Source: Streptomyces sp. NRRL B-3428
GTDB lineage: Bacteria > Actinomycetota > Actinomycetes > Streptomycetales > Streptomycetaceae
NCBI GenBank assembly: GCA_000721375.1
Contig: JOGW01000018.1
Location: 124,001-188,000 of the forward strand
Direction: 5' to 3'
Length of the DNA: 64,000 bases
A program made the translations under genes and the position numbers. The notes beneath the pieces were generated by a model that was given only the letters and a program-made list of their open reading frames with translations, had not been told where the DNA came from and searched no databases. This document shows, piece by piece, positions 38,215 to 61,344 of the stretch (position 1 is the stretch's first letter; every line of letters begins with the position of its first letter).

Positions 38215-38379
38215 AGCGGCCTCTTCTCGGGTGGGGAGCAAAAGTACGTAACCCGGACCGCTTTTGTCAGTCTTTTTCACTGTGCGATTTCTATGTCGCT
38301 TTATGTCATGAGTTCTCCGGGGGAATTCCGTTGTGCTCGCGGTGCTCGGTGGGCGCTCGCTGAGCAATTGCTCTGGGGA

Positions 38380-38465
38380 TGAGAGTTGACAGGTGACTTG
38401 ACCAGCGTGCTGTCAGATTGGCAGTCGATCAAGCAACTGGATCCGGGCCATCTGAAATGAGAGTG
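38380..38465 (+). repeat. Candidate left-end repeats of the Tn7-like element
   Basis: TGAGAGTT (38380-38387) and TGAGAGTG (38458-38465). The latter lies in AAATGAGAGTG (38455-38465), which recurs on the opposite strand at 58759-58769. The following stretch to 38922 has no convincing gene, only a hairpin (38592-38600/38615-38623). Confidence 0.4.
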
Positions 38466-38922
38466 CCCCGGTGGTTCGGTATGTCCGTGTGCTGCGGCTG
38501 GGCCGGTCGTGGGCACGCAGCGACGTGCGTCGCGCCTCGTTCGGAACGCTTCGCGTTCGCGCACATCTGGCGCAGGGCTGATGAGGCTCACCCGCTGGCG
38601 GTGATCCTCGTGAGCGCCAGCGGTTCGCGCGGGGTCAAATGCTCTTGGGGCGTGAACTGGTGCGACCGCAAGGTGTGTTGATCGGGTCCGAGATGGACAC
38701 CTGGTCCCGCTTGTTTGATCTTCGCAATGAGGCATGCACCGTCAACGCGGCTGCGACTGTCGAGTTTGCGCTGACGTTGCGGAACGGTCCGCTTCGAGTT
38801 AGGCGAGGAAGTCTTCCCAGCTCAGACGCTATGACTGTGTCGCGGGTCACGTTGACCGGAATGGCTGATCGATCGTTAACTCCTGTCACTTGTGAATCTC
38901 TTGTGACGCTGGGGTGGGGACT

Positions 38923-45700: not shown

Positions 45701-48700
45701 CGACGGCGCGAGCACATGGTCGGAATCGATGAAGCCGACCAAGGGCCTGGTCACCTGGACCGGCCGCGCCAAGGGCTACAACTCCGCCACCCCGAGCTGG
45801 CAGACCATCACCAGCTCCGCCACCACGGACTTCGACACCCTCGGCCGCCCCACCAAGGTGACCGACGCAGACGGGAAGCCGACCAGTACGGCATACACGC
45901 CCACCGATGCCGGACCACTCACCAAGACCATCACCACCAATGCACTGGGCCACAGGTCCGTCAGCTTCTTCGACCCACGCCGCGCGCAGCCGAAGACCAC
46001 CTACGACGCGAACCTGAAGAAGACTGAACTCGCCTACGACGCATTGGGCCGCCTGACTGCCGTGTGGCTGCCCAACCGGTCCAGCGCCAGCCAAAGCCCC
46101 ACCACCAAATTCGCCTACCACCTGGACAACAAGACACAGCCCTGGGTGTCCACCTCGACCCTGAAGCGCGATGGGGAGACCTACGACACCAGCTACGCGA
46201 TCTACGACGCGCTGCTACGGCCGCTGCAGACCCAGATCTCAACGCCCCAGGGCGGGCGGCTGCTGACCGACACCCGCTATGACACCCGCGGCCTCGTGTA
46301 CGAGACGCAGGCGGACATCTTCGACACCACCAGCCTGCCCAACGGCACCTACACTCGCGCCGAATACGGGCAAGCACCCAAGCAGACGCTGACCGAGCAC
46401 GACGGAGCAGGCCGGGCCACCAAGACCAAGTTCGTGGTGTTCGGCGCGGACAAGTGGTCCACGACCGCCAGTTACACCGGTGACTCCACCGCCACCACCG
46501 CCCTCGACGGCGGCACGGCCGCCCGTACCATCACCGACATCCGCGGCCGGACGGTGGAGACCCGGGAGTACGCCGGCAAGGAACCGGCCGACACGCAGTA
46601 TGGCGACGGCCTGGGCGCGACATATGTGTCCATGAAGTTCGGATACACCCTCGACGATCTGCAGACGCAGATCACCGGCCCGGACGACGCCAAGTGGTCC
46701 TACACCTACGACCTGTTCGGCCGCCAAATCACGGCGACCGACCCGGACAAGGGCACGAACCAGGCTCCCACGCAGTACGACGCCCTCGATCGACCGATCC
46801 AGTCCACCGACTCGCGCGGCAATTTGATCCTGTTCGGCTACGACGCCCTGGGACGCACGACGGGCACTTGGACGGGTTCGAAGACGGACGCCAACCAACT
46901 CACCGCCACCTCCTACGACACCTTGCTCAAGGGTCTTCCCGACTCCACCATCCGCTATGTGGGCGGCAAGACCGGCCAGGCCTACACCGACTCGGTCACC
47001 GAGTACGACACCCTGTCCCGCCCGGTGAAGTCCAAGCTTGAACTGCCCGCCACCGACCCGTTCGTGAAGGCCGGAGCCCCGGCGAGCCTGGAGTTCGAGA
47101 CCGCCTACAACCTCGACGGCACCACCAAGTACACGAAGGAGCCCGCCCTCGGCGGCCTGCCTTCCGAAATCGTCGACTACGACTACAACCAGCTCGGCCA
47201 GGTGACCTCAGCGGGTGGTTCCACCGGCTATCTCCTGGATACCGAGTACTCGGCCATCGGCCAGCCCACTCAGCTCACCGTGGGCACCGCCAACACGTCC
47301 GACCACAAGAAGTCCTACCTCAACAACCGCTACGAGCAGGGCACCGACCGGCTGATGCGTAGTTTCGTCACCGACGACACGCACGGCTACCAGCTGCAGG
47401 ACCTCAACTACAGCTACGACCAGGCCGGCAATGTCACCTCCATCGCCGACACCGCCACCCTCGGCGGCACCTCTGCAGCCGAGAAGCAGTGCTTCGCCTA
47501 CGACGGCCACCGGCGCCTGACCGAGGCCTGGACCCCCAGCTCCCAGAACTGCGCGGACGCCCGCAACGCAGGAAACCTGTCTGGCCCGGCCCCGTACTGG
47601 ACCAGCTACACCTACAACAAGGCCGGCCAGCGCAGCACCGAAACCACCCACAAGACCAGCGGCGACGCCAAGACCACCTACTGCTACACCGAACCCAAGC
47701 AGCCCCACACCCTGCGTCACACCACCACAACGGGCAACTGCGACAACGTCGGTGCCTGGTTCAACTACGACTCCGCCGGCAACACCCTGCAGCGTCACGG
47801 CAAGTCGGCCGCGCAGACGCTCACCTGGAATCAGGAGGGCAAGCTCGCAACCGCCACTGAGAACGGCGCGAAGACCGACTACCTTTACGATGCCGCCGGC
47901 GAACTTCTCATCCGCAACACCGAGAACGGCGAGCGGGTCCTCTACACCGGCGGTACCGAACTCCACCTTCGCGCCAACGGCACCACCTGGGCCCAGCGCT
48001 ACTACACCGCTGGCGGACAGACGATCGCCCTGCGCTCCACTGAGTCCGGCGCCAACAAGCTCACGTATCTGGCCGGCGACCACCACGGCACGATGTCCCT
48101 GGCCATCGACGCCGACGCCACCCAGACGTACAGCAAGCGCTACATGAGCCCGTTCGGATCTCAGCGCGGAGAGCAGCAGGGCACCACATGGCCCGATGAC
48201 AAGGGCTTCCTCGGCAAGACCAACGACGAGAACACCGCCCTCACCCACATCGGCGCCCGTGAATACGACCCGTCCATCGGCCAGTTCATCAGTGTCGACC
48301 CCCTGCTAGAGACCGACAAGCCCCAGACGGTTAACGGCTACAGCTATGCAGCCAACAACCCGCTCACCTATTCCGACCCGACTGGCCTGGCGCTCGACCC
48401 CGGAAACGGACGTGCCCACCAGAGCTCAACGAGCGGTTCCGGCAAGGGCGGCGATACACGCGACTCCGCGTTCCCGCTCAACCCTGGCGTCAGTTACAAG
48501 CCGAAGGACCAGGGAACCCCGAGCCAGCAACTCGGACGCATCGTGCGCTCCGAAATGCCCGGAACCCCCACCATTGAATTCATCGACGCCTTTGACATCG
48601 CCCTGGCGAAAGCCGAAAGCCACTGGCGCAAGATGTACAACGAACCGCTCCCCCTGGATCAGATAGGAGCAGTCGGTGTCGGAGTTTGCTCTGACGAAGA

Positions 48701-49565
48701 CGCATGCACCGATGAGCAAATGGGCTACTTCTACGACGTCTACATGCCGCCGGAGAAAATGCTCGAGATCGCCGTATCCGGCGGGCGCGGAGCATTCGCC
48801 ACCAAGGAAATGAGCGAACTCGCAAAGCGGCTGCGCGGAGGCTGCAAGTGCTTCCTCGCCGGCACAGATGTCCTCATGGCCGACGGGACCACGAAGAACA
48901 TCGAAGACGTCGAGCTCGGTGACGAGGTGATGGCCACGGATCCGGAGACGGGCGAGAAGGGACCCCGGAAGGTCACACGCCTGATCCGTACCGAGGACGA
49001 CAAGAAGTTCAACAAGCTCTCCATCGCAACCCCGGACGGAATCGAAGAACTCACAGCCACGCACGAGCACCCCTTCTGGTCGCCATCCCAGAAGAGCTGG
49101 ATAGAGGCAGGCGACTTGTCCGTGGGCATGACACTGCTCACCGACGACAACAAGACCGTAATCGTCACAGCAAACAAGCCCTTCACCAAGCATGCTCGTA
49201 CCTACAACCTCACCGTCGATGACCTCCACACGTACTATGTGCTGGCGGGGGAGACTCCGGTCCTCGTTCACAACAGCAACTGTGAAGGGCCGATTCTAAC
49301 CAGGTCTCAGTCCAACCAGGTGCTTGAGCGCCTCGGTTACAAGGAGACAAAGAATAAGTCGGCAGGCCGAGGGGCGGCGAGGATTTGGGAGAATAAGAAG
49401 GCGCCAGCGTCGGAGAGGTATGTAACTCAAGATATGACTGGGCACGGTGGTGGCCTTTTCAAGGCCGGGCCTACCGTTGAGTCGCTCCAGACAACCAGGA
49501 GTACGCTCCGGAGCGGTTCGTACGAGCTAGATAAGTTCGGTGGGCTGAAATGGCTTCGCAAATGA
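42744..49565 (+). CDS. Rhs-repeat polymorphic toxin with HINT domain and Ntox21-like C terminus
   Basis: A 2273-aa secreted protein with a signal peptide (residues 1-45). After an N-terminal shell region come many YD/Rhs repeats (YDALGRLTAVWLPN, YSYDQAGNVTSIAD; about 1100-1870) and the Rhs core end (IGAREYDPSIGQFISVDPL ... ANNPLTYSDPTGLAL). A linker leads to a pretoxin HINT domain starting at Cys2036 (CFLAGTDVLMADGTTKNIED) and closing with TPVLVHNSN, the autocleavage-type His-Asn. The last 95 residues (LERLGYKETKNKSAGRGAAR ... YVTQDMTGHGGGLFKAGPTV) look like the Ntox21 RNase family. GTG 42744. The toxin-coding end has lower GC than the repeats. The stop overlaps the next gene. Confidence 0.9.
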   Translation: MKAFGKGTSRWGVGGVGRWGRRVIVPALALTLLAPVGQLPLAVAADGGLGRPDLPKQRVSKVKEVTGLGAKKSRERVAKGKQAGQEQARRAEAEQKAAWPKSDTATIELSANKLAKADLAGTPVAVEPEPSRRLSAAEGQAEVTVLDQNSASKAGVTGVLLTAAAEQAGAAEVAVNYADFASMIGGGWSQRLQLVQLPACALTTPDKAECRKQTPLATDNNVTQQTVSAQIALAETQPQAEASGVTVFAVTATAAGTGPSSKGTGDYSATPLSSSSSWEAGGSSGSFSWNYGFTTPPAAAGPAPSLALSYDSGSVDGRTATSNNQGSAVGEGFSLTESYIERTYGSCEDDGHEDTFDRCWKYDNASLILNGTSSRLIKDNTSGEWRLENDDASTVKRSTGADNGDDNGEYWTVTTGDGTKYIFGLNKLEGATDQRTNSTWTTPVFGDDSGEPGYDKGSAFSDRSVTQAWRWNLDYVEDTRGNASTYWYAKESNYYKKNKAATANTSYTRGGYLKEIKYGLRKGALFTDDADAKVTFSHAERCTVGDCAELTKDTAQHWPDVPFDAICTDGDTECLGAGPSFFSRKRLTGINTHSWNATSKAYDPVDSWALTQDYYDAGDIGDTTDHVLVLKSIKRTGKAGTDIDLNPVSFTYQLRENRVDGTDDILPLKRHRIETITSETGAITTVTLSGPECKRSEVLGAAQDSNTRSCYPQYWNINGASEATVDWFHKYRVLAVGVADPTGQNQTVENAYAYAGAAWHHSDDPFTPKGERTWSEWRGYRDVTVYSGALDTTRSKTVSRYLQGMNGDKNKDGTTKTVNSDPLLDTDVDFTAAADNDQYQGQLRQKVTYNGSQPVTSTFKTYTSKNTATQTVPDAAAQTARWVRESTTYTSTYLTASNTWRSHATTTRYDDLGMVREVDDYGQKGLGGDETCTRTWYARNADAGISSLVSRTRTVGKECSIADTSLTLPGDDKSRGDVLSDTATGYDGASTWSESMKPTKGLVTWTGRAKGYNSATPSWQTITSSATTDFDTLGRPTKVTDADGKPTSTAYTPTDAGPLTKTITTNALGHRSVSFFDPRRAQPKTTYDANLKKTELAYDALGRLTAVWLPNRSSASQSPTTKFAYHLDNKTQPWVSTSTLKRDGETYDTSYAIYDALLRPLQTQISTPQGGRLLTDTRYDTRGLVYETQADIFDTTSLPNGTYTRAEYGQAPKQTLTEHDGAGRATKTKFVVFGADKWSTTASYTGDSTATTALDGGTAARTITDIRGRTVETREYAGKEPADTQYGDGLGATYVSMKFGYTLDDLQTQITGPDDAKWSYTYDLFGRQITATDPDKGTNQAPTQYDALDRPIQSTDSRGNLILFGYDALGRTTGTWTGSKTDANQLTATSYDTLLKGLPDSTIRYVGGKTGQAYTDSVTEYDTLSRPVKSKLELPATDPFVKAGAPASLEFETAYNLDGTTKYTKEPALGGLPSEIVDYDYNQLGQVTSAGGSTGYLLDTEYSAIGQPTQLTVGTANTSDHKKSYLNNRYEQGTDRLMRSFVTDDTHGYQLQDLNYSYDQAGNVTSIADTATLGGTSAAEKQCFAYDGHRRLTEAWTPSSQNCADARNAGNLSGPAPYWTSYTYNKAGQRSTETTHKTSGDAKTTYCYTEPKQPHTLRHTTTTGNCDNVGAWFNYDSAGNTLQRHGKSAAQTLTWNQEGKLATATENGAKTDYLYDAAGELLIRNTENGERVLYTGGTELHLRANGTTWAQRYYTAGGQTIALRSTESGANKLTYLAGDHHGTMSLAIDADATQTYSKRYMSPFGSQRGEQQGTTWPDDKGFLGKTNDENTALTHIGAREYDPSIGQFISVDPLLETDKPQTVNGYSYAANNPLTYSDPTGLALDPGNGRAHQSSTSGSGKGGDTRDSAFPLNPGVSYKPKDQGTPSQQLGRIVRSEMPGTPTIEFIDAFDIALAKAESHWRKMYNEPLPLDQIGAVGVGVCSDEDACTDEQMGYFYDVYMPPEKMLEIAVSGGRGAFATKEMSELAKRLRGGCKCFLAGTDVLMADGTTKNIEDVELGDEVMATDPETGEKGPRKVTRLIRTEDDKKFNKLSIATPDGIEELTATHEHPFWSPSQKSWIEAGDLSVGMTLLTDDNKTVIVTANKPFTKHARTYNLTVDDLHTYYVLAGETPVLVHNSNCEGPILTRSQSNQVLERLGYKETKNKSAGRGAARIWENKKAPASERYVTQDMTGHGGGLFKAGPTVESLQTTRSTLRSGSYELDKFGGLKWLRK

Positions 49566-50509
49566 CCCTTTGTTTCCTCGTCTCCAAGTATGACGAGCGC
49601 CGGCGTAGTGGTTTGATTGCCGACTGGACTTCCTTTGAGGATGTCGGCAAGTCTTTCAATGGCAAAGTGCTGACGGCTGCCGAGTATCAGCGGGTAGAGG
49701 ATTTGTACATCTCAGCCGTGGGTTCCCTGGCCGACGCCATGCAGGCGGACAGATTTGAGTTGAGAAACCTTGTTCTCAACGAGCCCCCGCCCGCCTGGCT
49801 TGGCGCCCCCTATGAGGGGTGCTCTGTTGAGCGGCACACTGCCCTAAGGTTGCTTAGGCGGATGCTCCGGCATGGGCTGATCTCTTGCACATTGGAAAGT
49901 GGAGATGCCCTTCGGGTGGCGGTCGAGACTGACTTTTACGTCTCGGTAGAGATCCAACCGGATGCGGTGGACTGCCTGGAGGAGGTGAGACATCTAGGGT
50001 TGCATTTGACTGCCGTGGATTGCGGCGAAGAGGAACGCGACGCCCCAACAACGGTCTCCCGTACGGCAGATTGCAAATTCTGGGAGGAGTTGGCGCAGAG
50101 CGTCAGGCTATCGCGAGGGGCAACTGCAATCCTCGAGCGTTGGGCGGAAGGATCCTTCGGCTACCGTTGGCTTCCAGTTTTTGACGGGAATCTCTCGGTA
50201 ATCGCCAGATCTGTTCGGCCGCACTCCTTGGTTACGGCGTATCTTGAAACGAGCGTTCAATGGGTATCGCGACGAAATCTGCTGCCTGCGATTGAGTCGG
50301 CCATTATGGTCGAAGATGAGCCGGTAGTGGTCTTCTCGCGGTCGGTTGGCGGAGTCGCGCCTGAAATTCTGGTATACAAGGGGGCCGTTCCGCCAATCGA
50401 GGTGGAGGTGCCTCCAGGCGATGTTTTCGGATTCTTCCTGTGGCCGGCTGATGATTCGCCCTCCATCCAGGCGATAGTGCCGGGTGATGGAGGCCGATCC
50501 ATTCAGTAG
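49562..50509 (+). CDS. Candidate immunity protein for the Rhs toxin
   Basis: A 315-aa acidic, apparently cytosolic protein with no signal peptide. ATG 49562 overlaps the Rhs stop as ATGA, the coupling expected for a toxin-immunity pair; an in-frame ATG at 49550 is possible. The N half (LCFLVSKYDERRRSGLIADW) and C half (GATAILERWAEGSFGYRWLP ... GDVFGFFLWP) look like two domains. It is large for an immunity protein. GC is visibly below the chromosome's, as usual for immunity genes. No family recognised; function is inferred from position. Confidence 0.65.
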   Translation: MTLCFLVSKYDERRRSGLIADWTSFEDVGKSFNGKVLTAAEYQRVEDLYISAVGSLADAMQADRFELRNLVLNEPPPAWLGAPYEGCSVERHTALRLLRRMLRHGLISCTLESGDALRVAVETDFYVSVEIQPDAVDCLEEVRHLGLHLTAVDCGEEERDAPTTVSRTADCKFWEELAQSVRLSRGATAILERWAEGSFGYRWLPVFDGNLSVIARSVRPHSLVTAYLETSVQWVSRRNLLPAIESAIMVEDEPVVVFSRSVGGVAPEILVYKGAVPPIEVEVPPGDVFGFFLWPADDSPSIQAIVPGDGGRSIQ

Positions 50510-50515
50510 TCGCGG

Positions 50516-50553
50516 CAACGGTGGCGGTCCCCACGAGACGACCGCCACCGTTG
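50516..50553 (+). terminator. Terminator after the immunity candidate
   Basis: 13-bp stem CAACGGTGGCGGT / ACCGCCACCGTTG with a 12-nt loop. Confidence 0.8.
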
Positions 50554-50580
50554 TCATGTTCAGCGAGAGGCCCTCGACGG

Positions 50581-51189
50581 GTGAAACGTAGCGAATACTT
50601 GAGCCTTCGCGCCTGCAGTGCGGCAACCTTCGCCCTAGATGCCAGACTCCCAGATCAGGTTTTTCAGGAGCCCGCAGGTGACTGGCTGTTCTGCGAGTTC
50701 GATGTAATCTTTTCTCCGGAGATCTGGCCAGCACTATGCATGATGGCTCGGTGGCACGGAGATGAGACCATCGAGCTGCTCGTTGCCGAGCCGGACTGTG
50801 ACGCCTTCTACCTCCCTGAAGGGCTCGGATACCCGGCAGTCTCCCTTTCTGTCGACGCCACCGAGGACGATTACTGGGCTGCCGTCGGATTTGATCCGAC
50901 CGGCGACGCGCTCGCATCACTTGCAATCTCTGCGAATGTCGTTTCCATGACCGGAGCGTCGGCAAAGTGGGGATGCTGGGGGGAAAGGGATCCTGAAGTC
51001 GCGGTTTTCAGCGGTTTTCCGGATGCTGTCGCGCGCGCAGAATGGTGCGAGCGGTTCGGGCCGTTCCTGAACGTGGCAGGAGCGCTGGAGTCTTACCTTC
51101 CAGCGGCCTTCGCCGGTCAGACGGTGCCGACTGAGTTTGCCGCCACCCTGACTGCCAACTACGCGCCGCAGGGCGATAGCCGGGCTTAG
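50581..51189 (+). CDS. Orphan cytosolic protein, possibly a second immunity gene
   Basis: A 202-aa protein, MKRSEYLSLRACSAATFALD..., acidic and Trp-rich (WLFCEFDVIFSPEIWPALCMMARW, SAKWGCWGERDPEVAVF). It has no signal or membrane segment and a GC content below the chromosome's. It follows the candidate immunity gene after a terminator, as arrays of orphan immunity genes do. Start is GTG 50581. No family recognised. Confidence 0.6.
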   Translation: MKRSEYLSLRACSAATFALDARLPDQVFQEPAGDWLFCEFDVIFSPEIWPALCMMARWHGDETIELLVAEPDCDAFYLPEGLGYPAVSLSVDATEDDYWAAVGFDPTGDALASLAISANVVSMTGASAKWGCWGERDPEVAVFSGFPDAVARAEWCERFGPFLNVAGALESYLPAAFAGQTVPTEFAATLTANYAPQGDSRA

Positions 51190-51225: not shown

Positions 51226-51669
51226 CGAGGCGCCGCTGATGCACCTGGGCGGCTACGACAACTCGACCGCCAAACCGTTGGCCCCGGTGCACTGGAAGTC
51301 ACGGAGGACATACAAGCGAACCCACCTATTGGGTTGGGGCTCGGACCATGCCACCGCGAGCAATGCCCAAGACCTGTGGATCAGCCTCGGGCGTTGCCTC
51401 GGCCAGTTGAGGAGCTGGGGGAGTCAGGCCGCCGACGTGTGGGCGTGCTTGAGCGCGCTGCGCGCCTTCGGCACATCGTCCGCGCTCACGGAGCTCCAGA
51501 ACGGGGAGGTGACGATTGCCGTGGTGAGTTCCAGTTCGCGTTCCTTGAGCTTGTCCCGCTGGGACTTCTGCTCGGCGGTGTAGCTGGGGGAGGTCTCGCG
51601 TGGGTTTTGCCCCAGTTTATGGACATCTCTTGAAGATCGGATCGTGGGGCCCGAGGTGGAGGTGTCCGG

Positions 51670-51859
51670 GTGGCTGCACGGCGGTATTCAGAGGAGTTCA
51701 AGCGGGACGAGGTCGAGCTGGTGGCATCCGAACAACTCGGTGGCCAGGGAGCTCGGGGTCAACACAGAGTCACTGCGGCAGCGGGTGCGGGCCGCCCGGA
51801 GTCCTGCACCGAGTGCGGGCGGTGAGCAGGTGACGCCAGCCGAGCGGGAAGAGCTGAAA
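51670..51859 (+). pseudogene. IS3-type OrfA transposase fragment
   Basis: Reads VAARRYSEEFKRDEVELVAS in one frame and then NNSVARELGVNTESLRQRVR ... TPAEREELK in another. Together these are the helix-turn-helix N-terminal half of an IS3-family OrfA, with a frameshift near 51720-51735 and abrupt loss after EELK. Confidence 0.75.
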
Positions 51860-51861
51860 CC

Positions 51862-51933
51862 GCAGGCGGCCAGATCATCGCCCAGCGCTTCAACGAATCT
51901 GGCGCCAACAAGCTTACGTACCTGGCCGGCGAC
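51862..51933 (+). pseudogene. 24-codon fragment of an Rhs gene
   Basis: AGGQIIAQRFNESGANKLTY followed by LAGD matches AGGQTIALRSTESGANKLTY in the intact Rhs protein (near 48016-48087); DNA identity is high. It is sandwiched between two transposase remnants, showing that a second, diverged Rhs gene once existed here. Confidence 0.85.
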
Positions 51934-52155
51934 TTTGTCCGGGGCGTGGGGACTTCACTGTGGATCGTGCCGGACGGCCTCTGGGAGCGGCGGTTTCGGT
52001 ACCCCAGGTGTCGGCAGGCCGGTCCCGGACCGCTAGGTGCTGCGCGGAATCCTGTCCTACACGCCGATATCCAGTGGGAACATCTTCCACAGGAGCTCGG
52101 CTTCGGCTCGGGCATGACGTGCTGGCGTCGGCTGCGGGACTGGAACGAGGCTGGT
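51934..52155 (+). pseudogene. IS5-type transposase N-terminal fragment
   Basis: IVPDGLWE ... RRFRYP ... HADIQWEHLPQELGFGSGMT then CWRRLRDWNEAG is the N-terminal region of IS5-family transposases, with an internal deletion and a frameshift, cut off before the catalytic part. Confidence 0.8.
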
Positions 52156-52290
52156 GATGCCGATGCGGGCGTTCCCGAGCCTTCCTTGTTCGCGACCAGT
52201 TCGACGCCGCATCCCCGGGGTGGCACATGGACACTGGGCATCCTCCTGAACCCTCGCGCATCCTGATGTCAGGCGGGGACAATCGCCTCC

Positions 52291-53526
52291 ATGGCGCTGT
52301 CCCGTCCCTCTGTCCCCATTTCGGTGCCAATTTCCTTTCCTGCTGAGGACTTCGCGCTTGTCGAGCGGCGGGCCAGGGCTGGCGGGGTCAGTGTCGAAGA
52401 GTACGTGCGCGAGCTGGTCGTTGAGGAGGCACGTGAGGAGGAGCGGCTGGCGAGCAAGTTGCCGCCGCCTCTGCCGTGGCCGAACAGGATGACGTTGGTT
52501 CCTGAGCCGTTGCCTGGCGAGTCGTTCATGAGCTGGATGGATGCGCTGGCCCGGGAGAACGGCTGCGGGCGCAACGTGCTGCTCATGGAGTTCTGGAGGA
52601 CTCGAAGGTCACCGCATTCGTACACGCACCGGCTGGGTGAAGCTCTGTCGGAGGACGGCATTGCCCGTATCACTGCAGCGACGGGGCTTTCGACGGCTGC
52701 GGTTGAGGCGCTGAGGTTGAACCGCTACCGCAGCGGGATTCCGGCCCTGGAGGCAGAAGGTGCCTGGTCGGAGAGACCACGCGCCTTCATTATGGACACC
52801 TTCTCCACGGAGGAGTACTCGCGCTGGTGCCCGCAGTGCATCGCCGAGACCGGTGGCCGGTGGTTCCTGAGATGGAAGCTCGCTTGGTCGTACGCCTGCG
52901 TGAAGCACGAGGTGTTCCTCAACATCGGCTGTCCCGCGTGCGGGGAGGTACAGGACTACCACAACGGGCCGCCGGATCTGCGGCTTCGCTGTCCGGCCCG
53001 CCCTGGGGCGGGCCGCGACGGCGGGAAGCGCTGTGAGCAGCAGCTTGCCGAGGCCCCCGCGCGACGGGTCACTGACCCCCGGTTGATCGAGCTTCAGCGG
53101 TGGATCGACTACGGATTCGGGGAGGGGGAGCGCCCCAGACTGGGCCGCAGCGCGTCTGCACTCTTCGACTATCCTGCCACACTGCAACTGATCCAACTCC
53201 TGCAGACACCGCCGATGTTCGCGCAGGCCGATCCGGCGATCGCCGAGGCCATGGCCGATGGAGCCCTCCGCAGGCCGACCATGTACGTATACCCCGGCGA
53301 GGTCCACGACCCGGTGGTCATGGCCGGAATCATCGGACTCGCCGATGAGCTGATGACGTCCCGTACGGGCAGAGCCGCGTGGTTCGCCGATCTGGCGCAG
53401 GCGGGAAGGAAGGACGCGCCGGCTCACGACCGTGAACCGCTGTCGCTGCGGTGGATTGCAGGGCTGGTCTTTCCTTGGCTGTTGGACACCCTCAAGGACC
53501 GAGGACTTGTCACGGACTCACACTGA
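52291..53526 (+). CDS. TniQ family target-selection protein with ribbon-helix-helix-like N terminus
   Basis: A 411-aa protein. Residues 10-50 (SVPISFPAEDFALVERRARA, GGVSVEEYVRELVVEEAREE) resemble a ribbon-helix-helix module plus helix. Then comes the TniQ start (LVPEPLPGESFMSWMDALARENGC) and a zinc site (WCPQCIAETGG, YACVKHEVFL, IGCPACGEV). TniQ/TnsD proteins bind the target and recruit TnsC. It is convergent to the tns operon, ending 26 bp from the tnsC stop. It has no strong ribosome binding site and may be leaderless. Confidence 0.85.
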   Translation: MALSRPSVPISVPISFPAEDFALVERRARAGGVSVEEYVRELVVEEAREEERLASKLPPPLPWPNRMTLVPEPLPGESFMSWMDALARENGCGRNVLLMEFWRTRRSPHSYTHRLGEALSEDGIARITAATGLSTAAVEALRLNRYRSGIPALEAEGAWSERPRAFIMDTFSTEEYSRWCPQCIAETGGRWFLRWKLAWSYACVKHEVFLNIGCPACGEVQDYHNGPPDLRLRCPARPGAGRDGGKRCEQQLAEAPARRVTDPRLIELQRWIDYGFGEGERPRLGRSASALFDYPATLQLIQLLQTPPMFAQADPAIAEAMADGALRRPTMYVYPGEVHDPVVMAGIIGLADELMTSRTGRAAWFADLAQAGRKDAPAHDREPLSLRWIAGLVFPWLLDTLKDRGLVTDSH

Positions 53527-53552
53527 TGCCCTCTGGGCATGCCTGAATCTCC

Positions 53553-54701
53553 TCACGCACCGCCTTCAGCGCCAGCCGCCCTGCGGGTGCTCGTTGTCGG
53601 TGTTGTCTTCTTCGCCTCCGAGGACTTCAGAGCACGGACCTTGGCGTAGCTGCGCTCGTGTGCGTAGGACAGAACGATGGAGTCCATCACCTCGCGGGTG
53701 ATTGCTTCGGTGCCCTCGGACACCGCGCGGACCGCGCTGCGACGTAACAGGGTGTGCAGGCCGGCGATGCTGCCGCCGGTGCGCTCATGTAGGTAGCGCC
53801 AATGGCGGCGGGTCAGGCTTTCGGGCTTGTGGAGATACAGGGCCAGGGCGCGTTCCAGGGAGTGAACAGTGCCCGCCCATTCCGTGCGGCCCCGGGCGGT
53901 GTCCAGGACGAACGGGGCGAGCAGTTGCCGGCTGAAACGGCCGGAAGTCTGGGTGTTGCGGCCGGTGGCGCCGCCCTCGCTGAGCAGCGGGCTGTTCTCC
54001 AAGTCGACGCCGGTGCCGATGATGGTGCAGGGCGCATGGTTGGCAAGGTACTTGATGTGATCGTTGGAGGCGCGGCCGTCCTTTTGCGAGCAGTCCAGGA
54101 AATGCAGGTCATCGAAGATCAGAAGCTGGGTATCGCTGGCCTGGAGAGCCCTCAGGACGCGGTCGTCAACGGCTTCCTTGGTGCCGCTGGTGGGGGTGTG
54201 GAGGTAGCGGGCGATGGCCATGGAGATCTGCTTCGGGGTGACCTGGTCGGCCAGCGAAATGTAGACGACAGGGACGCAGCACCCGAGCCGCTCGGAGCTG
54301 AACCACTCGGGAAAGTCCTGGCGTAGGTCTTGCTCGAATTTCCGGGCGATCATCTTGATCAGGGTGGACTTGCCGACTGTGGGCGGGCCATCGATCAGCA
54401 GGCCTGGCCGGGCGCCGGCTGGGGCCTCCTCGTTGGCAGCCAGCAACTCCGTGATCTCCTTCTCGAATCGCTGCACGGCCGGGGTCCAGGCCAGCACCAA
54501 CGCGCTGTGGTATCGGCTGCGTAAACGGTTGAAGCGTCTGCGTTCACCGATGTCCATCGCCAGGTACGTCTCGTACGGCGGCAGTTGCGGGTGCGGCGGA
54601 GGCTCGTACAGGACGTATGCGGCCCAGTCCTCCTTCGTACGCGGCTCGGCCAGCCCCGGGTGCGCACCGCCGTCCTCGCCCGGGGGCGGCGGCCCGGTCA
54701 T
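53553..54701 (-). CDS. tnsC: TnsC/TniB AAA+ ATPase, transposition regulator
   Basis: A 382-aa protein that would link target-bound TniQ with the transposase. Walker A is LLIDGPPTVGKSTLIKMIAR (about residues 102-120), Walker B TQLLIFDDLHFLD, sensor CTIIGTGVDLE. The start ATG 54701 overlaps the tnsB stop (ATGA). The open frame continues to 55661 antisense to tnsB, which is not real. Codon 60 is TTA (54522-54524). Confidence 0.92.
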   Translation of the reverse strand: MTGPPPPGEDGGAHPGLAEPRTKEDWAAYVLYEPPPHPQLPPYETYLAMDIGERRRFNRLRSRYHSALVLAWTPAVQRFEKEITELLAANEEAPAGARPGLLIDGPPTVGKSTLIKMIARKFEQDLRQDFPEWFSSERLGCCVPVVYISLADQVTPKQISMAIARYLHTPTSGTKEAVDDRVLRALQASDTQLLIFDDLHFLDCSQKDGRASNDHIKYLANHAPCTIIGTGVDLENSPLLSEGGATGRNTQTSGRFSRQLLAPFVLDTARGRTEWAGTVHSLERALALYLHKPESLTRRHWRYLHERTGGSIAGLHTLLRRSAVRAVSEGTEAITREVMDSIVLSYAHERSYAKVRALKSSEAKKTTPTTSTRRAAGAEGGA

Positions 54702-56863
54702 GGTGTTTCGTCCGTGTCGGTTCGGCCGCCCCACACCTTGTAGGAGGGCAGGGCATCGAAGTCGATCGTGACGTCTTCCTCCTCGTCCCTGGGAAGCGGT
54801 GGGACCGCGCGCAGCCGGGGCTCCTTGAAGGGAGCGTCGGCTGCGGAATCGGCTACTTCGGTCCGCGCCTTGTCCCGAGCCGCTGCCCGGGCACGCTCGG
54901 CATCCCGGGCCCGCGCGCGGCGGGATCGGGCGGTGGACGCTTCGGCGGCATCCGTGCGGTTCTGTAGATCCAACAGGGCGTCCAGGACGGCCTGTTGGTC
55001 CTGCGGGTCGCGTCCGCGTTCGCGCAGTTCCTGCTTGACCTGGCGCAGGGTGAGGTCGGTGAACGGCTCCAGACCACTCAGCGCGTGAGTCCAGCGCAGT
55101 GTGTGCCAGATGCCGCTGTACGGGTCGTGGAAGTAGACCTGCGTCATGTCCCGCGGGTCGTAGCGGATCGGCCAGGCGCCCTTGGCCTGCGGGTAGGGCG
55201 ACTTGGCGGCGTTGTGGATGCGGGTGATGGGCGCGCTGTAGTGCAGGTAGTCCTTCTGGATCCGGCGGTTGGTTATCGAGCACCAGTGGATCGGCAGCAG
55301 TTCCAGGAACAGGTTGGGATCCCGTGGGGCGGCGATGTAGCCGCAGCGGTGCACGGCCAGTCGGTATGCGTCGTTCGGTGACAGGTTGATCTCCGGGAAA
55401 CCCGGCAGCACCAGGCCCTTGTGTCGCTTGCGTTGGTACACGGCGACGACGTACTCGGCGAAGAACTCCTCCAGCTCCTCGAGCGTCCAGCGGGCCACCG
55501 CGTCCACGTCCCTGCCACGGTGCACCACATGATTGCCCTTGTAGCCGGCGATGTGCTCGGAGAACTGGCTCCTGATGGTTTTGAACGCCGCCTCGACCTG
55601 CGGCTTGTCGGTGGGCTTGTACTTGCGGGCGTCCTGGATGGTGATGCCGTAGCGGCGGCACACGTTCTTCACCGCCTGGGAGGCGAAAGCCTTGCCGTGG
55701 TCGATCACGACCTTCTCGGGGAACACCACCGGGCGCGCTGCGGCGGCCGCGAACCGCTCATCCTGCGCGAGCTTCGGCTCGCACGGTAGGCGCAGCATCC
55801 TGTGGCGCAGCCCTTCGGGCCAGCCCGGACGCATCGGCTCGGGCATCATCGCGTCCGCGATCACCAGACCCGCGTCCACGCCCTTCGTGCCTTTGGGCAC
55901 CAGCCGCCAGCCGAGCAGGCTGCGCGTGCATATGTCGACGGCGATGGTCAGCTCGACGGAGAACACGGCGTCCTCGACCGGATCGTAGGCACGGACATCC
56001 AGCCAGCCGGTGTCGATCATCACCAGCTCGCCGGGTCGGCTCGCGGTGATCGGACGGTAGTGCCCGTCCGGCCGGTTCGCCACCGACTGCCGTGTCGTGG
56101 CCAGCCCCGTGGTGTAGCGGCCGGGCAGGAGAATGGCGACGTACCGGTTGAACGACTTCTGTGACGGCATCTTCACCGCGCCCGAGCCGTGTACGTCGGC
56201 CAGACGGCGCTCCACCCGGCGACGCAGCCGGTTCAGGCTTCCCGTCGAGTCGTCCGCCTCCGTCACGGAATGCTGCGTGAGGATCGCGTCGATCAGACGC
56301 TGGTCCACACCCGCCAATGGGTCCAACGACCGGTGGGAGCGCCGATCCACCAGCCCCCACGGTCCCTGCTCACGCCACCTGCGCAGCCGCCGCCACACCT
56401 GCGGCTCGCTGTAGCCCAACTCCCGTGCCTTGCTGCGCACCCGCTGGGCCAGCGGTAGCTCCGGGGCGTACTTCTCCCTGGGCTCATCGGGCAGCGCCTC
56501 CTCCGGGCTTCCACTGCGAAAGCCCGTGGTCAACTCCAGAAGGTGCTCCTGGGCGTGCTGGAGGTCTTTCAACTGCGTCTCGCTCAGCGTGTCGAACAGT
56601 GCGGCGGCATCCGACCACAACTTGCGCTCTGAAGCGTCGAGTTCCCCGGAATCGTCACCCTCCTCCGACGCGTCTGGTGGGCCGTCGTCGTAGGGGCGGA
56701 AGGTGGGGTCCGCAAGCAGGTGGCCTACGCCGATCACCGTCCACGAGCCGCTCTCCGAACGCAGCCGTACACCGTCATCAGTTACCCCGGTGACGGTGTG
56801 CACCTCGTCGTCCAGCCACACCTTCGCATCGCGTCGCAGCCGCACCGCACCTTCGACCGTCAC
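54698..56863 (-). CDS. tnsB: TnsB-like DDE transposase
   Basis: A 721-aa transposase with an integrase-core RNase H fold. N-terminal HTH domains (about 100-250, AQRVRSKARELGYSEPQVWRRLRRWREQG) bind ends. Catalytic residues fit D284 (LVMIDTGW), D388 (VVIDHGKAF) and E424 (PQVEAAFKTIRSQ), followed by a Mu-type C-terminal beta-barrel (about 500-600) and a basic, coiled tail that would contact TnsC. GTG 56863 has GGAGGTGA just upstream and overlaps the tnsA stop by 4 bp. Confidence 0.93.
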   Translation of the reverse strand: MTVEGAVRLRRDAKVWLDDEVHTVTGVTDDGVRLRSESGSWTVIGVGHLLADPTFRPYDDGPPDASEEGDDSGELDASERKLWSDAAALFDTLSETQLKDLQHAQEHLLELTTGFRSGSPEEALPDEPREKYAPELPLAQRVRSKARELGYSEPQVWRRLRRWREQGPWGLVDRRSHRSLDPLAGVDQRLIDAILTQHSVTEADDSTGSLNRLRRRVERRLADVHGSGAVKMPSQKSFNRYVAILLPGRYTTGLATTRQSVANRPDGHYRPITASRPGELVMIDTGWLDVRAYDPVEDAVFSVELTIAVDICTRSLLGWRLVPKGTKGVDAGLVIADAMMPEPMRPGWPEGLRHRMLRLPCEPKLAQDERFAAAAARPVVFPEKVVIDHGKAFASQAVKNVCRRYGITIQDARKYKPTDKPQVEAAFKTIRSQFSEHIAGYKGNHVVHRGRDVDAVARWTLEELEEFFAEYVVAVYQRKRHKGLVLPGFPEINLSPNDAYRLAVHRCGYIAAPRDPNLFLELLPIHWCSITNRRIQKDYLHYSAPITRIHNAAKSPYPQAKGAWPIRYDPRDMTQVYFHDPYSGIWHTLRWTHALSGLEPFTDLTLRQVKQELRERGRDPQDQQAVLDALLDLQNRTDAAEASTARSRRARARDAERARAAARDKARTEVADSAADAPFKEPRLRAVPPLPRDEEEDVTIDFDALPSYKVWGGRTDTDETP

Positions 56864-57624
56864 GTACTCACCTCCGCCGCAGCCCTTACGAGCGTGGTCT
56901 CCCGCAGCGGGCGGTCGAGGTCCGTGACGATCCGCTGATGCCACATCAGGTGATACAGGACTCCCCGGGCCAGGTCCGGAAACTCCATGAACCGCATCAG
57001 CTCACCGATCTCCACTGGCTCACGAGCCAACTCCAGGAGGCGCGGCACCAGATCCCCGCCGAGATACAGCGGACGCCGGGCGTTGGAAAGCAGATCGACA
57101 TTCGCCCACAGCTGGCCGTCCGGCTCCGACACCATCGCGTACTCCCAGCCCAGCCGTCCGCACGTTCGCTGGGTGCGCTCCTCCTGCAACAGCACCCCTG
57201 GGTCATTGCGCTGCTCGGCATTCTTCACGTCCAACAACAGCACGCTCCGGTCCCGGCGGCGAGCGAAGATGTCCGGCGTATGCCGCCACGCGCCGCGGGC
57301 GTCGACCGCATCGAACTCCAAAGGCTGCGTGGCGAACGCGGTCACCTCCGGATCGAAGTCCAGCAGCGTCAGCCACTTCGACTCCAACACGCTCTCGTAG
57401 TCGACGAAGTCACCCGACTTAGCCGCCCAATAATGCCCCGGCATATGCCCCTGCCCCGGGTAACTGGGAATGGCCCGCGCCATCCGGCCGTCCTCGAACG
57501 GCACGTCGGCCGCATCCTCCAGTCGCGACAGATGCTCGATCCCTTCGGCGTCGACATACCGCACCCGTACCAGATCGATGTCCCGGACCGGCATCTCGTC
57601 CAGCGCGTCCCCACCGTCAGTCAC
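56860..57624 (-). CDS. tnsA: TnsA-like endonuclease subunit
   Basis: A 254-aa restriction-fold nuclease that would cut the 5' ends so the element moves by cut-and-paste. Motifs: YESVLESKWLTLLDF (Glu), HTPDIFARRRDRSVLLLDVKNAEQ (Asp and Lys of PD-DxK). GTG 57624 has GGAGG upstream and overlaps the stop of the upstream tniQ by 4 bp (GTGA); its own stop overlaps tnsB. Confidence 0.9.
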   Translation of the reverse strand: MTDGGDALDEMPVRDIDLVRVRYVDAEGIEHLSRLEDAADVPFEDGRMARAIPSYPGQGHMPGHYWAAKSGDFVDYESVLESKWLTLLDFDPEVTAFATQPLEFDAVDARGAWRHTPDIFARRRDRSVLLLDVKNAEQRNDPGVLLQEERTQRTCGRLGWEYAMVSEPDGQLWANVDLLSNARRPLYLGGDLVPRLLELAREPVEIGELMRFMEFPDLARGVLYHLMWHQRIVTDLDRPLRETTLVRAAAEVST

Positions 57625-58730
57625 CGCGAACCTCCGCCTTCCCACGGGCTCTTGGCCCACCCGCCTGTCGGAACACACGCTCTGATTGCCTGCGCGAAGA
57701 CCTCCGGCACAGCGAGCCGCTTCAGCGGCCCAGCGCTCAAGCACCCCTCATCTGCGGCCGTTCGCACCAAAGGCGCCAGCCTCAGTGACAGCTCCCGCAC
57801 ATCAGTCGCCGCCAGCACGGGTGTCACGAGGGCGAGAAGCGCCGCTGCGGCTTCGGCCGAAGCCGGACCCCATCCGAACCTTCCCCCTCGTGCCCCGCGG
57901 TCGGCGCTCTCCTGCCACAGGGCCCGAGCGCACCAGGCAGAAACGTCTCCCACACGCTGCAACACCCTGGGCAGGCCGAGCCTCAGCAGGATCACGCACG
58001 CCCGAAACGCAGCGAACCATCCGGCAGCCGATACGTTCACGCCGCCCAGCACAGGCTCCACCCGCTCGAACGCGACGTCCAGCCAGTGCCGTTGCGCAGC
58101 CACTGACTCCGCAGAAGCACCGTCAGTACGTGACGCAGGCAACCATCGCGAACACGGCCTTCCCTTAACGGAATTCGCGCACACGGTCGGCAGCCTGGCC
58201 CACTGTGCCGGCACGACCCGAGGTCGGTCCCCTCCCCAGCGCAACACCCACTGACACGTCGGACAGCGATCGAGCAGTACCAGCTGATGCTCGGGGCATA
58301 CCGCCGCGCACGACAACTTCCACCACAACTGCCACACTCCGCCTGACGCCAGCAGACAGCTAGGGCACGCACGACTGCCGTACACCTCGACCCATTCCCG
58401 CCCCGCTGACGCCCGCGCCGCCACCGTGCCCACCGAGAGGACCGCCGGGATACTTAGCGGCCCGCCCTCGAACACCGACAAGTGCATCCCGTCGACCAGG
58501 CGTCCCGGGATGCCCGTCGCCGCGTACACGGTCCGCCGGAGCGGCTCATCGGGCCGCACTCCGAAGACCGGCGGGCGAACGCCCGCGGAAGCGCCGCGCA
58601 AACGCAGCCCCAACATGGCGGCCACCTCTGCCGACGGGCAGCGGTTAAGCCGTGCCAGCCGATCCACCCACGACCCGAAGGCCTCACCTGAGCGCGGGGT
58701 CGTGACCAGCGCTAACCGCCGTGGCGGCAC
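57621..58730 (-). CDS. tniQ: TniQ family protein heading the tns operon
   Basis: A 369-aa TniQ protein: start region LALVTTPRSGEAFGSWVDRLARLN, zinc ligands in CPSCLLASGG, AAVCPEHQLVLL and RCPTCQ, then a helical C-terminal half. It differs strongly from the other TniQ at 52291-53526 and lacks its N-terminal extension. The first gene of the operon tniQ-tnsA-tnsB-tnsC. GTG 58730 follows AGGGGGTGA. Codon 6 is TTA (58713-58715), so the whole coupled operon may be limited by bldA. Confidence 0.88.
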   Translation of the reverse strand: MPPRRLALVTTPRSGEAFGSWVDRLARLNRCPSAEVAAMLGLRLRGASAGVRPPVFGVRPDEPLRRTVYAATGIPGRLVDGMHLSVFEGGPLSIPAVLSVGTVAARASAGREWVEVYGSRACPSCLLASGGVWQLWWKLSCAAVCPEHQLVLLDRCPTCQWVLRWGGDRPRVVPAQWARLPTVCANSVKGRPCSRWLPASRTDGASAESVAAQRHWLDVAFERVEPVLGGVNVSAAGWFAAFRACVILLRLGLPRVLQRVGDVSAWCARALWQESADRGARGGRFGWGPASAEAAAALLALVTPVLAATDVRELSLRLAPLVRTAADEGCLSAGPLKRLAVPEVFAQAIRACVPTGGWAKSPWEGGGSR

Positions 58731-58758
58731 GCGATCACCCCCTGAAAGTGATCTGGAA

Positions 58759-58818
58759 CACTCTCATTTAGGGGTACACGCTATCAATTGCACTATCACA
58801 TTGGAGTTCACACTCTCA
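58759..58818 (-). repeat. Right-end TnsB-type binding repeats
   Basis: Four copies of CRCTMTCA at 58759, 58779, 58791 and 58811 (spacings 20, 12, 20): CACTCTCA, CGCTATCA, CACTATCA, CACTCTCA. Read outward-in on the minus strand the last copy begins TGAGAGTGTGAAC, a TG...CA-type terminus at 58818. They lie between the tniQ promoter region and the chromosome. The flanking 58819-58945 holds no gene; TGCAT/ATGCA (58874-58889) is a small dyad upstream of the lyase gene. Confidence 0.7.
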
Positions 58819-58945
58819 TCTCGACCATCCGCCCTCACTCGCCGGATTCGTGCGGGCCGGGTCTTGCCCCCGTTGCATAAGGTCATGCAGAGTTCCTCGG
58901 GAGTGAATAGATCGTCCGCGCGCTGTTACGGGAGGTGGCGTCACC

Positions 58946-58999
58946 ATGGGCGAGGGCGCCGTCATGGGCGAGGGCGCCGTCATGGGCGAGGGCATCGTC
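58946..58999 (+). repeat. 18-bp repeat with three in-frame ATGs
   Basis: ATGGGCGAGGGCGCCGTC occurs twice in tandem, then ATGGGCGAGGGCATCGTC. Each copy offers a start codon and a GAGGG-type ribosome binding sequence for the next. Confidence 0.9.
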
Positions 59000-60514
59000 G
59001 TTCTCGACGGCCGGAGCCTGCGGGTCGCCGATGTCGTACGGCTCGCGGAGGGCGTGGCCCGACCCGTCCCCGGCGCCGAGGCCGTGCGGCGCGTCGAGGA
59101 CTCCTGGGCCACCGCGCGTGAACTCGCCGAGTCCGGCCGGGTCTACGGCCGCTCCACCGGCGTCGGCGCCAACCGGAACGAGAGTGTGGCCGGCGAGGCC
59201 GCCGCCGAACACGGCCTCAGGCTCCTGCGCTCCCACGCCGGTGCGATCGGTGCGCCGCTGCCCGCACGCGAGGTCCGCGCAATGCTCGCCGTACGGGCGA
59301 ATCAGCTGCTCGCGGGAGGTGCGGGGCTCAGGCCCGCCGTGGTCACCGCGCTGTGCGAGGTCCTCGATTCCGGGGCCCATCCCGTCGTGAACGAGTTCGG
59401 CTCCGTCGGCACCGGTGACATCGCGGCCCTCGCCCAGGCCGGGCTCGCCCTCGCCGGTGAGCACCCCTGGGCCGCGGGACCCGCCCCCGCGCCGCTCCCG
59501 CTCGACAACAACGACGCGCTCGCGCTGATCAGTTCCAACGCGCTCACACTCGGCCAGTCCGCCTTGGCGCTGGGGGAGTTGAGGCGGCTGATCGCGGCCA
59601 CGCAGGTGGTCGGCGCACTGTCGCTGCTCGCGGTGGACGGCTCGTACGAGGCCTACGCCGAGCCCGTGCACGCGGCCCGTCCGCACCCCGGCTCGTACGC
59701 CGTCGCCGCCCGCAGCCGCCGACTGCTCGGTGCGCCCGAACGTCCCGCCCCGCCGGCCGGCCGGATCCAGGACCCGTACGCCTTCCGCTGTCTGCCGCAG
59801 ATCCACGGTCCCGCCGAGGATGCCGCCGACGCCCTCGAAACGACCCTCGCCGTCGAGCTGAACGCCGCCGCCGAGAACCCGCTGATCAGCGTCGAGGACC
59901 GGGCCGCGTACCACCACGGCGGGTTCTACCTGGCCCAACTCGCCCTGGCGCTCGACCACTTCAGGCTGGCCCTGATGCAGGTCGCGCAGCTGTCGGCCTC
60001 GCGCCTTGCCGCGCTGAACGAACCGGCCCTCACCCGGCTCAAGCCCTTCCTCGCCGACCAGGAGCCCGCCTCGTCCGGCGTGATGATCCTGGAGTACGCG
60101 GCCGCGGCGGCCCTCGGTGAACTGCGTTCCTTCGCGCACCCCGCCTCGCTCGGCCACGTGGTGCTTTCGCGGGGCGTCGAGGAACAGGCCAGTTTCGCCT
60201 CCCTCGCCGCCCGCCAGACCCTGCGGGCCGCGGCGCCGCTGCGGCTCGTCGTCGGCTGTGAACTGGTCGCGGCGATACGGGCGTTGCGGATGCGCGGTCC
60301 GCGGCCCGCGTCCGGGCTTCCGGTCGGCGAGGCCTTCGCGCTCGCCGCGGAGATCCTCGACGAGGACCTCGGCGACCGGCCGCTCACCGATGATGTGACG
60401 GCGGCAGCGGCGCTGCTCGACCGGTTCGCCGACCTCCAAGTCATGCGGTCCGAGAGGCAAGAGGGGCGCGAGGGGCGCATGGGGTACGAGGGTTACGAGG
60501 AGAGCAGACGATGA
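58946..60514 (+). CDS. Aromatic amino acid lyase (HAL/PAL family) homologue without the ASG triad
   Basis: A 522-aa protein of the histidine/phenylalanine ammonia-lyase fold: YGRSTGVGANRNESV (catalytic Tyr loop), LDNNDALALISSNALTLG, QDPYAFRCLPQIHGPAEDA and NAAAENPLI are all present. The segment that normally reads GSVGASGDLAPLA is GSVGTGDIAALAQ, so the Ala-Ser-Gly that cyclises to MIO is missing. It may be inactive, use another chemistry, or have changed function. The N terminus repeats MGEGAV three times. GGGAGG precedes ATG 58946. The stop overlaps the RpiR gene (ATGA). Confidence 0.88.
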   Translation: MGEGAVMGEGAVMGEGIVVLDGRSLRVADVVRLAEGVARPVPGAEAVRRVEDSWATARELAESGRVYGRSTGVGANRNESVAGEAAAEHGLRLLRSHAGAIGAPLPAREVRAMLAVRANQLLAGGAGLRPAVVTALCEVLDSGAHPVVNEFGSVGTGDIAALAQAGLALAGEHPWAAGPAPAPLPLDNNDALALISSNALTLGQSALALGELRRLIAATQVVGALSLLAVDGSYEAYAEPVHAARPHPGSYAVAARSRRLLGAPERPAPPAGRIQDPYAFRCLPQIHGPAEDAADALETTLAVELNAAAENPLISVEDRAAYHHGGFYLAQLALALDHFRLALMQVAQLSASRLAALNEPALTRLKPFLADQEPASSGVMILEYAAAAALGELRSFAHPASLGHVVLSRGVEEQASFASLAARQTLRAAAPLRLVVGCELVAAIRALRMRGPRPASGLPVGEAFALAAEILDEDLGDRPLTDDVTAAAALLDRFADLQVMRSERQEGREGRMGYEGYEESRR

Positions 60515-61344
60515 CCGACAGCCCGGCCACCCGCCTTCAGCAGTTGTTCGAGGGCCACCGCCTGACGCCCACTCAGCGCCGTATCGCGCACTGCATGGTG
60601 CGGCGGGCGTCCGATGTGCCGTTCCTGTCCTCGGTGGAGCTCGCCGAACTCGCCGGTGTCAGCCAGCCGTCGGTGACCCGCTTCGCGGTGGCGCTCGGCT
60701 TCGACGGCTATCCGGCGCTGCGCAAGCATCTGCGGGAGGTGGCCCCGGCGGAGGCGGGCGCGGCCGCGGAGCTCAACGAGTACCAGCAGGCCGTGGAGGC
60801 GGAGATCGAGAATCTGCGTCATCTCGCCTCGGTGCTCGCCGATCCCGCGCCGGTGGAGCAGGCGGGCGCGCTGCTCGCCGCGTCCCGTCCGCTGCCGGTG
60901 CTCGGGCTGCGCGCTGCGGCCTCGCAGGCGTACGGCTTCGCCTACTTCGCGGCCAAGGTGCACCCCGACGTGCGGCTCCTGCACGAGGGCGGCACGATGC
61001 TGGCCGACCGTCTGGAGGCGGCCGCGCGCGCGGGCGCCACGGCCCTGATGTGCTTCGCGCTGCCCCGCCATCCGCGGGAGGTCGTCGATGCCCTGACGTA
61101 CGCGAAGTCCCTCGGTCTGACCGTCGTCACGGTCGCCGACTCGGCCTTCGCGCCGGTCGCCAAGGCCTCGGATCTGCTGCTCCCCGCGGCGGTCGGGACG
61201 GGGCTCGCCTTCGACACGGTGTGCGCTCCGATGCTGCTCGGCCGGGTCCTGTTGGAGGCCATGTGCGACGGGCTTCCTGAGGCGCAGGCGCGGTTGGAGG
61301 CCTTTGACGCGCGGGCGGCGGAGCGCGGGTTGTTCGTGGAGTAG
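60511..61344 (+). CDS. MurR/RpiR family transcriptional regulator
   Basis: A 277-aa protein. N-terminal HTH (about 8-80: LTPTQRRIAHCMVRRASDVPFLSSVELAELAGVSQPSVTRFAVALGF) and C-terminal SIS domain (about 120-255: RPLPVLGLRAAASQAYGFAYFAAKV, GTGLAFDTVCAPMLLGRVLLE), which binds phosphorylated sugars or related ligands in this family. Its ATG overlaps the lyase stop, so both are made together and it likely controls the lyase operon. Confidence 0.92.
   Translation: MTDSPATRLQQLFEGHRLTPTQRRIAHCMVRRASDVPFLSSVELAELAGVSQPSVTRFAVALGFDGYPALRKHLREVAPAEAGAAAELNEYQQAVEAEIENLRHLASVLADPAPVEQAGALLAASRPLPVLGLRAAASQAYGFAYFAAKVHPDVRLLHEGGTMLADRLEAAARAGATALMCFALPRHPREVVDALTYAKSLGLTVVTVADSAFAPVAKASDLLLPAAVGTGLAFDTVCAPMLLGRVLLEAMCDGLPEAQARLEAFDARAAERGLFVE

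Follow-up and report, generated by a model that had tools for sequence, protein, structure and literature searches.

Tn7 duplicates 5 bp of its target, has TGTGGG termini and is directed by its TnsD protein to attTn7 (glmS). We analyzed a stretch of 64,000 nucleotides from Streptomyces sp. NRRL B-3428 (contig JOGW01000018.1, positions 124,001 to 188,000; hereafter the window). With a probability of roughly two in three, it contains a complete actinobacterial Tn7-like transposon of 20,477 bp, for which cut-and-paste transposition is predicted and which is located some 30 bp from the predicted operator of an RpiR-family regulator, likely steered there by TniQ1, one of its two TniQ proteins. Like Tn7 directed by TnsD, the element combines a TnsABC core with a TniQ-domain protein and has inserted, with a 5-bp duplication, a short and constant distance away from a host sequence, with the gene spared. 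It differs from Tn7 in its landmark (a palindrome lying upstream of an operon, in place of a gene's 3' end), in the length of TniQ1 (369 aa) and in termini that begin with TGAG. A TniB-type TnsC, a TniQ and a DDE transposase are also features of Tn5053/Tn402 and Tn6022, but the TnsB of the window aligned with such plasmid relatives, which we take to be Tn6022-like and Tn402-like, over half of its length at about 22–26% identity.

An Actinobacteria-dominated clade of Tn7-like elements (clade 2) was reported as experimentally uncharacterised by Benler et al. 2021 (PMC8649781). The passages of that survey on clade 2 describe two features also seen in the present element, cargo and arrays of (here putative) TnsB sites, the latter having served in the survey to locate element ends; these passages name no attachment site, whereas here the ends, the target-site duplication and a fixed landmark are defined. 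Faure et al. 2023 (PMC10293859) counted 1,048 tandem tniQ/tnsD loci versus 2,905 single ones. Such dual loci, as presented in the main text, resemble our element in that a single transposon encodes at least two TniQ-family proteins; unlike them, close relatives of the element carry up to four TniQs. The term "ribbon-helix-helix" is absent from that main text, and such a domain is predicted at the N-terminus of the second TniQ of the window (TniQ2).

A sequence-only reading of this locus had proposed a complete Tn7-like TnsABC and TniQ set, arranged as tniQ-tnsA-tnsB-tnsC with 4-bp overlaps and with a second, divergent tniQ convergent to the operon. Both the order and the completeness were borne out. 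The open reading frames (ORFs) overlapped by GTGA at 57621–57624 (tniQ1/tnsA) and 56860–56863 (tnsA/tnsB) and by ATGA at 54698–54701 (tnsB/tnsC). The two TniQs scored 74.1 and 44.3 bits against Pfam PF06527 (cut-off 27), TnsA scored 180 bits against the NCBIfam model TnsA_like_Actin (NF033179, cut-off 110), and TnsC exceeded the cut-off of TniB (PF05621) and matched ShTnsC at 2.7e-05. TnsB was below the Pfam rve cut-off (24.4 vs 32.6) and matched solved TnsB chains, the best at 1.5e-08. The catalytic residues, whose misalignment would have spoken against the proposal, were all in register: the TnsB triad D284/D388/E424 was invariant in 7 of 7 aligned sequences, TnsA E81 and D118 were invariant in 6 of 6 (the K134 column had K in five and R in the sixth; all three residues were also in register with TnsA of R721), and the TnsC P-loop (G105/G110/K111/T113) and Walker B residue D197 were invariant in 5 of 5. 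In the host genome TniQ (PF06527) was matched twice and TnsB once, each time inside the window, and no further copy of either was found elsewhere in that genome at the thresholds used. TnsB, TnsA, the TnsC/TniB protein, TniQ, inverted termini with arrays of likely TnsB sites and a 5-bp duplication all place the element among Tn7-like transposons. No TnsE or TnsD family was detected among the proteins scanned, which did not include every ORF.

The element extends well beyond these genes. The unit had initially been drawn at 52291–58818, which is too short, since matching inverted termini at both ends, with the 5-bp duplication CTCGC outside both, place the element at 38361–58837. The ends were first spotted by reading and then tested against shuffled sequence: TGAG-N14-ATGAGAGT occurred exactly twice in the 64 kb, in inverted orientation at 38361(+) and 58837(-), and in none of 100 shuffles, and ATGAGAGT occurred four times, two per end and all directed inward (shuffle mean 0.67, no shuffle with four). 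An element consisting of the operon alone was ruled out by the mapped ends. Counted from the right end, internal repeats had offsets of 18, 38 and 70; counted from the left end, these were 18 and 96. The same layout, with a left offset of 97 instead of 96, was observed in S. achromogenes, L081 and L084, the three relatives for which both ends were available; the offset-38 repeat of L081 was too degenerate to call. The ATGAGAGTG repeats are putative TnsB-binding sites.

Of 295 genomes of the genus, including that of the window, 161 had a TnsB match with an E-value no higher than 0.001. The close group (TnsB 83–87% identical) was rare and comprised S. achromogenes (G013/L049) and L081–L086, which were drawn from a scan of genome contigs that returned 53 loci; L081 is S. 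apricus and L083 is S. pyxinicus. The comparison of insertion sites in related Streptomyces, suggested earlier as a check, revealed one palindrome-linked site shared by four species. In each, the element lay beside an rpiR operon with its tniQ1 end facing the operon, 29–31 bp from TGYATN6ATGCA. The distances were 31 bp for the window element (flanking 5-mer GCGAG, read from the tniQ1 side), 30 bp for S. achromogenes (62,261 bp; CCCGT), 29 bp for S. apricus (21,091 bp; GGGGC) and 30 bp for L082, of which only the right end was visible. Flanking 5-mers were identical at both ends within each of the three complete elements and different between species, and these different duplications indicate that the insertions are independent. 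The equal offset and single orientation, in turn, favor targeting. That separate insertions, here three complete elements and one right end, recur at a constant distance from a single host sequence is the pattern of site-specific TnsD-type homing. The contig of L083 started at the TGAG terminus of the right end, so that its insertion site was unreadable; this assembly break is possibly due to more than one copy or site.

The palindrome itself, in the form TGYATN6ATGCAG, was present as a single copy in the window. TGYATN6ATGCA was also detected in the homologous region of five of six element-free relatives (on the other strand of the locus in L063) and was not found in that of the sixth, L068. 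Beside two of the four rpiR-site elements the hutH gene was missing and rpiR was kept, which points to the palindrome as more likely the operator of the regulator.

The close relatives differed in their TniQ repertoires. In all seven, the operon was followed by extra tniQ genes (designated here TniQa, TniQb and TniQc), giving four tniQ genes in six of them and three in L081, some in pieces; tniQ1 of L084 was frameshifted. The whole genome of L081 yielded three TniQ matches, and TniQc was not seen there. The window element was without TniQa, b and c, and it alone among the eight close elements had TniQ2, which was 27–35% identical to the extra TniQs of the relatives in local alignments. A pair of TniQs, as noted in the sequence-only reading, is thus not typical of close relatives, which carry three or four. 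In a wider set (L081–L103), at least two TniQ genes were counted by us at 15 of 23 loci, some of which were cut by contig ends. One of these loci, L095, had two tniQ genes in tandem, each followed by tnsA-like sequence, before one tnsB, a partial duplication of the front of the operon. A search of 394 genomes from the family found TniQ1 in three, namely the genome of the window, that of S. achromogenes and a third in which the coordinates matched those of L083, and provided no new flank; among candidates scored in a protein database, TniQ1 had 23 homologues besides itself.

TniQ1 was the only TniQ common to all four rpiR-site elements, and for this reason it is the likely selector of the site. 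L086 is a natural mosaic in this respect: its tniQ1 stretch was nearer to L085 (80–91% in five comparison windows) than to L081 (76–79%), and its tnsABC was nearer to the rpiR-site element of S. apricus in 16 of 16 windows. Identity comparisons were limited to TniQ1, TnsA–C and TniQc, as the TniQa and TniQb tables, in which the longest match was taken, mixed genes. Three of the seven close elements with a readable flank lay elsewhere: L084 adjoined tRNA-Met (both ends were found, with unequal 5-mers), and L085 and L086 occupied one shared locus in two species, upstream of a gene read from its ORF as an FAD-type oxidoreductase. The left ends of L085 and L086 were not found, and their right ends were, by eye, not equidistant from a common motif. 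Three observations weigh against TniQ1 as the selector: TniQ1 of S. achromogenes was at least as near to that of L085/L086 as to those of its site-mates, TniQc covaried with the site too, and L082 and L084 shared TniQ1 (92%) and TniQc (98%) yet lie apart. Because of these last three observations, we hold the role of TniQ1 to be likely and not proven.

The position could instead be set by an intrinsic preference of TnsB/TnsC for the palindrome region, which by eye is richer in A+T than its surroundings, with no TniQ involved. TnsB and TnsC, like TniQ1, were common to all four elements; however, L084, L085 and L086 sit elsewhere with TnsB 83–95% and TnsC 78–91% identical to those of the rpiR-site elements, and L086 resembled L085 in its tniQ1 stretch and not in tnsABC, making such a preference unlikely. 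Selection by another TniQ (a, b or c in the relatives, TniQ2 in the window) would agree with the finding that the TniQc proteins of L085 and L086 were nearer to each other than to that of S. achromogenes. We give this possibility little credence, since the window element lies at the site without TniQa, b or c, L081 does so with no TniQc seen, and TniQ2 was, among the eight close elements, seen in the window element alone. A third explanation dispenses with targeting: after a single ancestral insertion, vertical inheritance or homologous recombination of flanks would render the shared position uninformative. All carriers are indeed Streptomyces, and the window, S. achromogenes and S. apricus had the same chromosomal neighbors, but three elements carried their own matched, species-specific duplications, which drift would have had to change in both copies in step, and element sizes and tniQ sets differed. 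One ancestral insertion was rejected on the differing duplications and appears very improbable. CRISPR guidance was also provisionally rejected, as nothing of the kind was seen in an incomplete test: no Rfam family was detected at threshold in 35000–64000, with no CRISPR-array search run, and no cas-type family was detected among the proteins scanned, which did not include all small ORFs, with no dedicated cas search.

If TniQ1 directs insertion, TnsB would bind the repeats at both ends, and TnsA and TnsB would together excise the element. TniQ1 would recognize the palindrome region, directly or via a partner, and load TnsC, which would position TnsAB, such that the insertion would land upstream of the rpiR operon and leave it uncut. 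TniQ2, whose N-terminus is predicted to form an Arc/CopG-like (ribbon-helix-helix) domain, might act as a second, exchangeable selector for another target. The earlier proposal that two TniQs mean two target pathways is at most suggestive: TniQ1 tracked one site in four species, and TniQ2 occurred in none of the seven close relatives. A structure prediction of TniQ1 from 19 sequences was too poor in its N-terminal half, matching of this prediction against PDB gave two weak, unrelated rows, and in a sequence-profile search solved TniQ chains were matched weakly (best 0.0054). A broader and rather doubtful idea is that the lineage carries as many as four TniQ selectors as an interchangeable set, that TniQ1 docks on the palindrome-bound RpiR repressor so that the element parks beside a regulated operon, and that the fusion of a ribbon-helix-helix domain to TniQ in TniQ2 is a new class of directly DNA-reading selector.

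Table 1. Features of the transposon and its flanks (coordinates of the window)
Feature	Position	Strand	Remarks
tniQ1	57621-58730	-	369 aa; PF06527; found in each of the seven close relatives (one copy frameshifted); likely rpiR-operon-site selector
tnsA	56860-57624	-	endonuclease; E81, D118, K134
tnsB	54698-56863	-	DDE transposase; D284, D388, E424
tnsC	53553-54701	-	AAA+ ATPase, TniB family
tniQ2	52291-53526	+	411 aa; TniQ core and predicted N-terminal ribbon-helix-helix domain, about residues 7-56
Left target-site duplication copy CTCGC	38356-38360	.	identical to 58838-58842
Left terminus TGAG-N14-ATGAGAGT, including the first likely TnsB site	38361-38386	+	
Second left-end likely TnsB site ATGAGAGTG	38457-38465	+	offset 96 (97 in three relatives)
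Right-end likely TnsB site	58759-58767	-	offset 70
Right-end likely TnsB site, degenerate GTGATAGTG	58791-58799	-	offset 38
Right terminus TGAG-N14-ATGAGAGT	58812-58837	-	
Right target-site duplication copy CTCGC	58838-58842	.	
Palindrome TGCATAAGGTCATGCAG (TGCAT-N6-ATGCA plus G)	58874-58890	.	predicted operator of rpiR/hutH-like operon, likely targeting landmark; 31 bp from duplication
Flanking aromatic amino acid lyase, hutH-like	58946-60514	+	
Flanking RpiR-family regulator	60511-61344	+	
Left-flank MFS-SpoIIE gene	35872-38367		
Cargo: 1239-aa protein	38914-42633	+	Laminin_G_3 domain
Cargo: 2273-aa RHS/YD-repeat polymorphic toxin	42744-49565	+	pretoxin HINT and Ntox21 C-terminus
Cargo: 319-aa protein overlapping toxin gene	49550-50509	+	candidate immunity protein, from position alone; no family over cut-off
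Cargo: 222-aa ORF	50521-51189	+	no family

In the 34-row TnsB tree, the window sequence grouped with L049, L081, L084 and L086 (100/100), nested in an actinobacterial group of 15 rows (97/99), and the rows of R721 (the Tn7-type TnsABCDE comparison set) and of the presumed Tn6022-like and Tn402-like elements formed a separate group (99/97). The tree was rooted at the midpoint and had long branches, that of R721 being very long. The TnsB group of the window thus excludes R721 and hence Tn7 in the strict sense, and the TnsB/TniA rows of Tn5053/Tn402 or Tn6022 type stand apart from the actinobacterial rows. Of the phylogeny suggested for TnsB and TnsC, the separation from these rows was obtained; the tree was built from TnsB rows only and left out TnsB of CRISPR-associated transposons. 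The proposal of an uncharacterised actinobacterial Tn7-like lineage agrees with both this tree and the clade 2 passages of PMC8649781.

Five element-free relatives (L063–L067) matched the window on both sides of the element and had, between the matching flanks, an ABC-transporter operon, presumably of the betaine type (gene-called in L064; the ATPase was placed there in the L063 genome, and its start was seen by eye in L063–L067). In L068 the lyase was present and the left-hand neighbors were missing within the stretch compared. Deletion of this operon by the insertion was rejected, since duplications were intact at both ends of three elements; the operon was more likely absent beforehand. A left-flank search of 392 genomes gave four matches besides the window's own, at only 66–67% identity, and hence no close empty site.

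The cargo includes an interbacterial-type RHS toxin (HINT and Ntox21) with a short overlapping downstream gene (42744–50509). The gap between cargo and tniQ2 (about 51600–52240) contained what, by eye, look like degraded remnants of insertion sequences, adjoined by a dip in G+C to 0.58 at 49001–51000. Outside the element, about 11500–14800 of the window showed a strong GC skew (up to 0.25), G+C of 0.77 and proline-rich ORFs on both strands, possibly a collagen-like repetitive gene. Among more distant TnsAB(C) relatives, those about 35% identical (L157–L164 among them) clustered at the ends of Streptomyces chromosomes or linear replicons, often one per end; among the matches listed in one-contig genomes, approximately 17 of 38 were within about 100 kb of an end (a hand count, with genome sizes partly rounded). 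TniQ was not seen at seven of eight end-located loci in a single-sequence search (E 0.001), for which the Pfam model was not used. Transposition directed to replicon ends could account for this clustering, as could duplication together with the terminal inverted repeats.

This kind of element was already known; new, as far as the literature searched shows, are its landmark for attachment, the precise positions of its ends, the set of several TniQs and the predicted ribbon-helix-helix TniQ. Nothing on the site choice of Streptomyces TniQs turned up in the open-licence PMC literature searched. For an actinobacterial Tn7-like lineage, precise ends and an attachment site are now available, together with a likely selector gene that is naturally mosaic, and target choice by the TniQ family is therefore directly testable. 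If TniQ1 does read the operator, or its repressor, this would add a new type of address to those of Tn7, and the ribbon-helix-helix TniQ fusion, if real, would be a compact and potentially portable DNA-reading module. A protein-guided system native to Streptomyces, with natural elements of up to 62 kb and one defined site, could also aid genome engineering of antibiotic producers.

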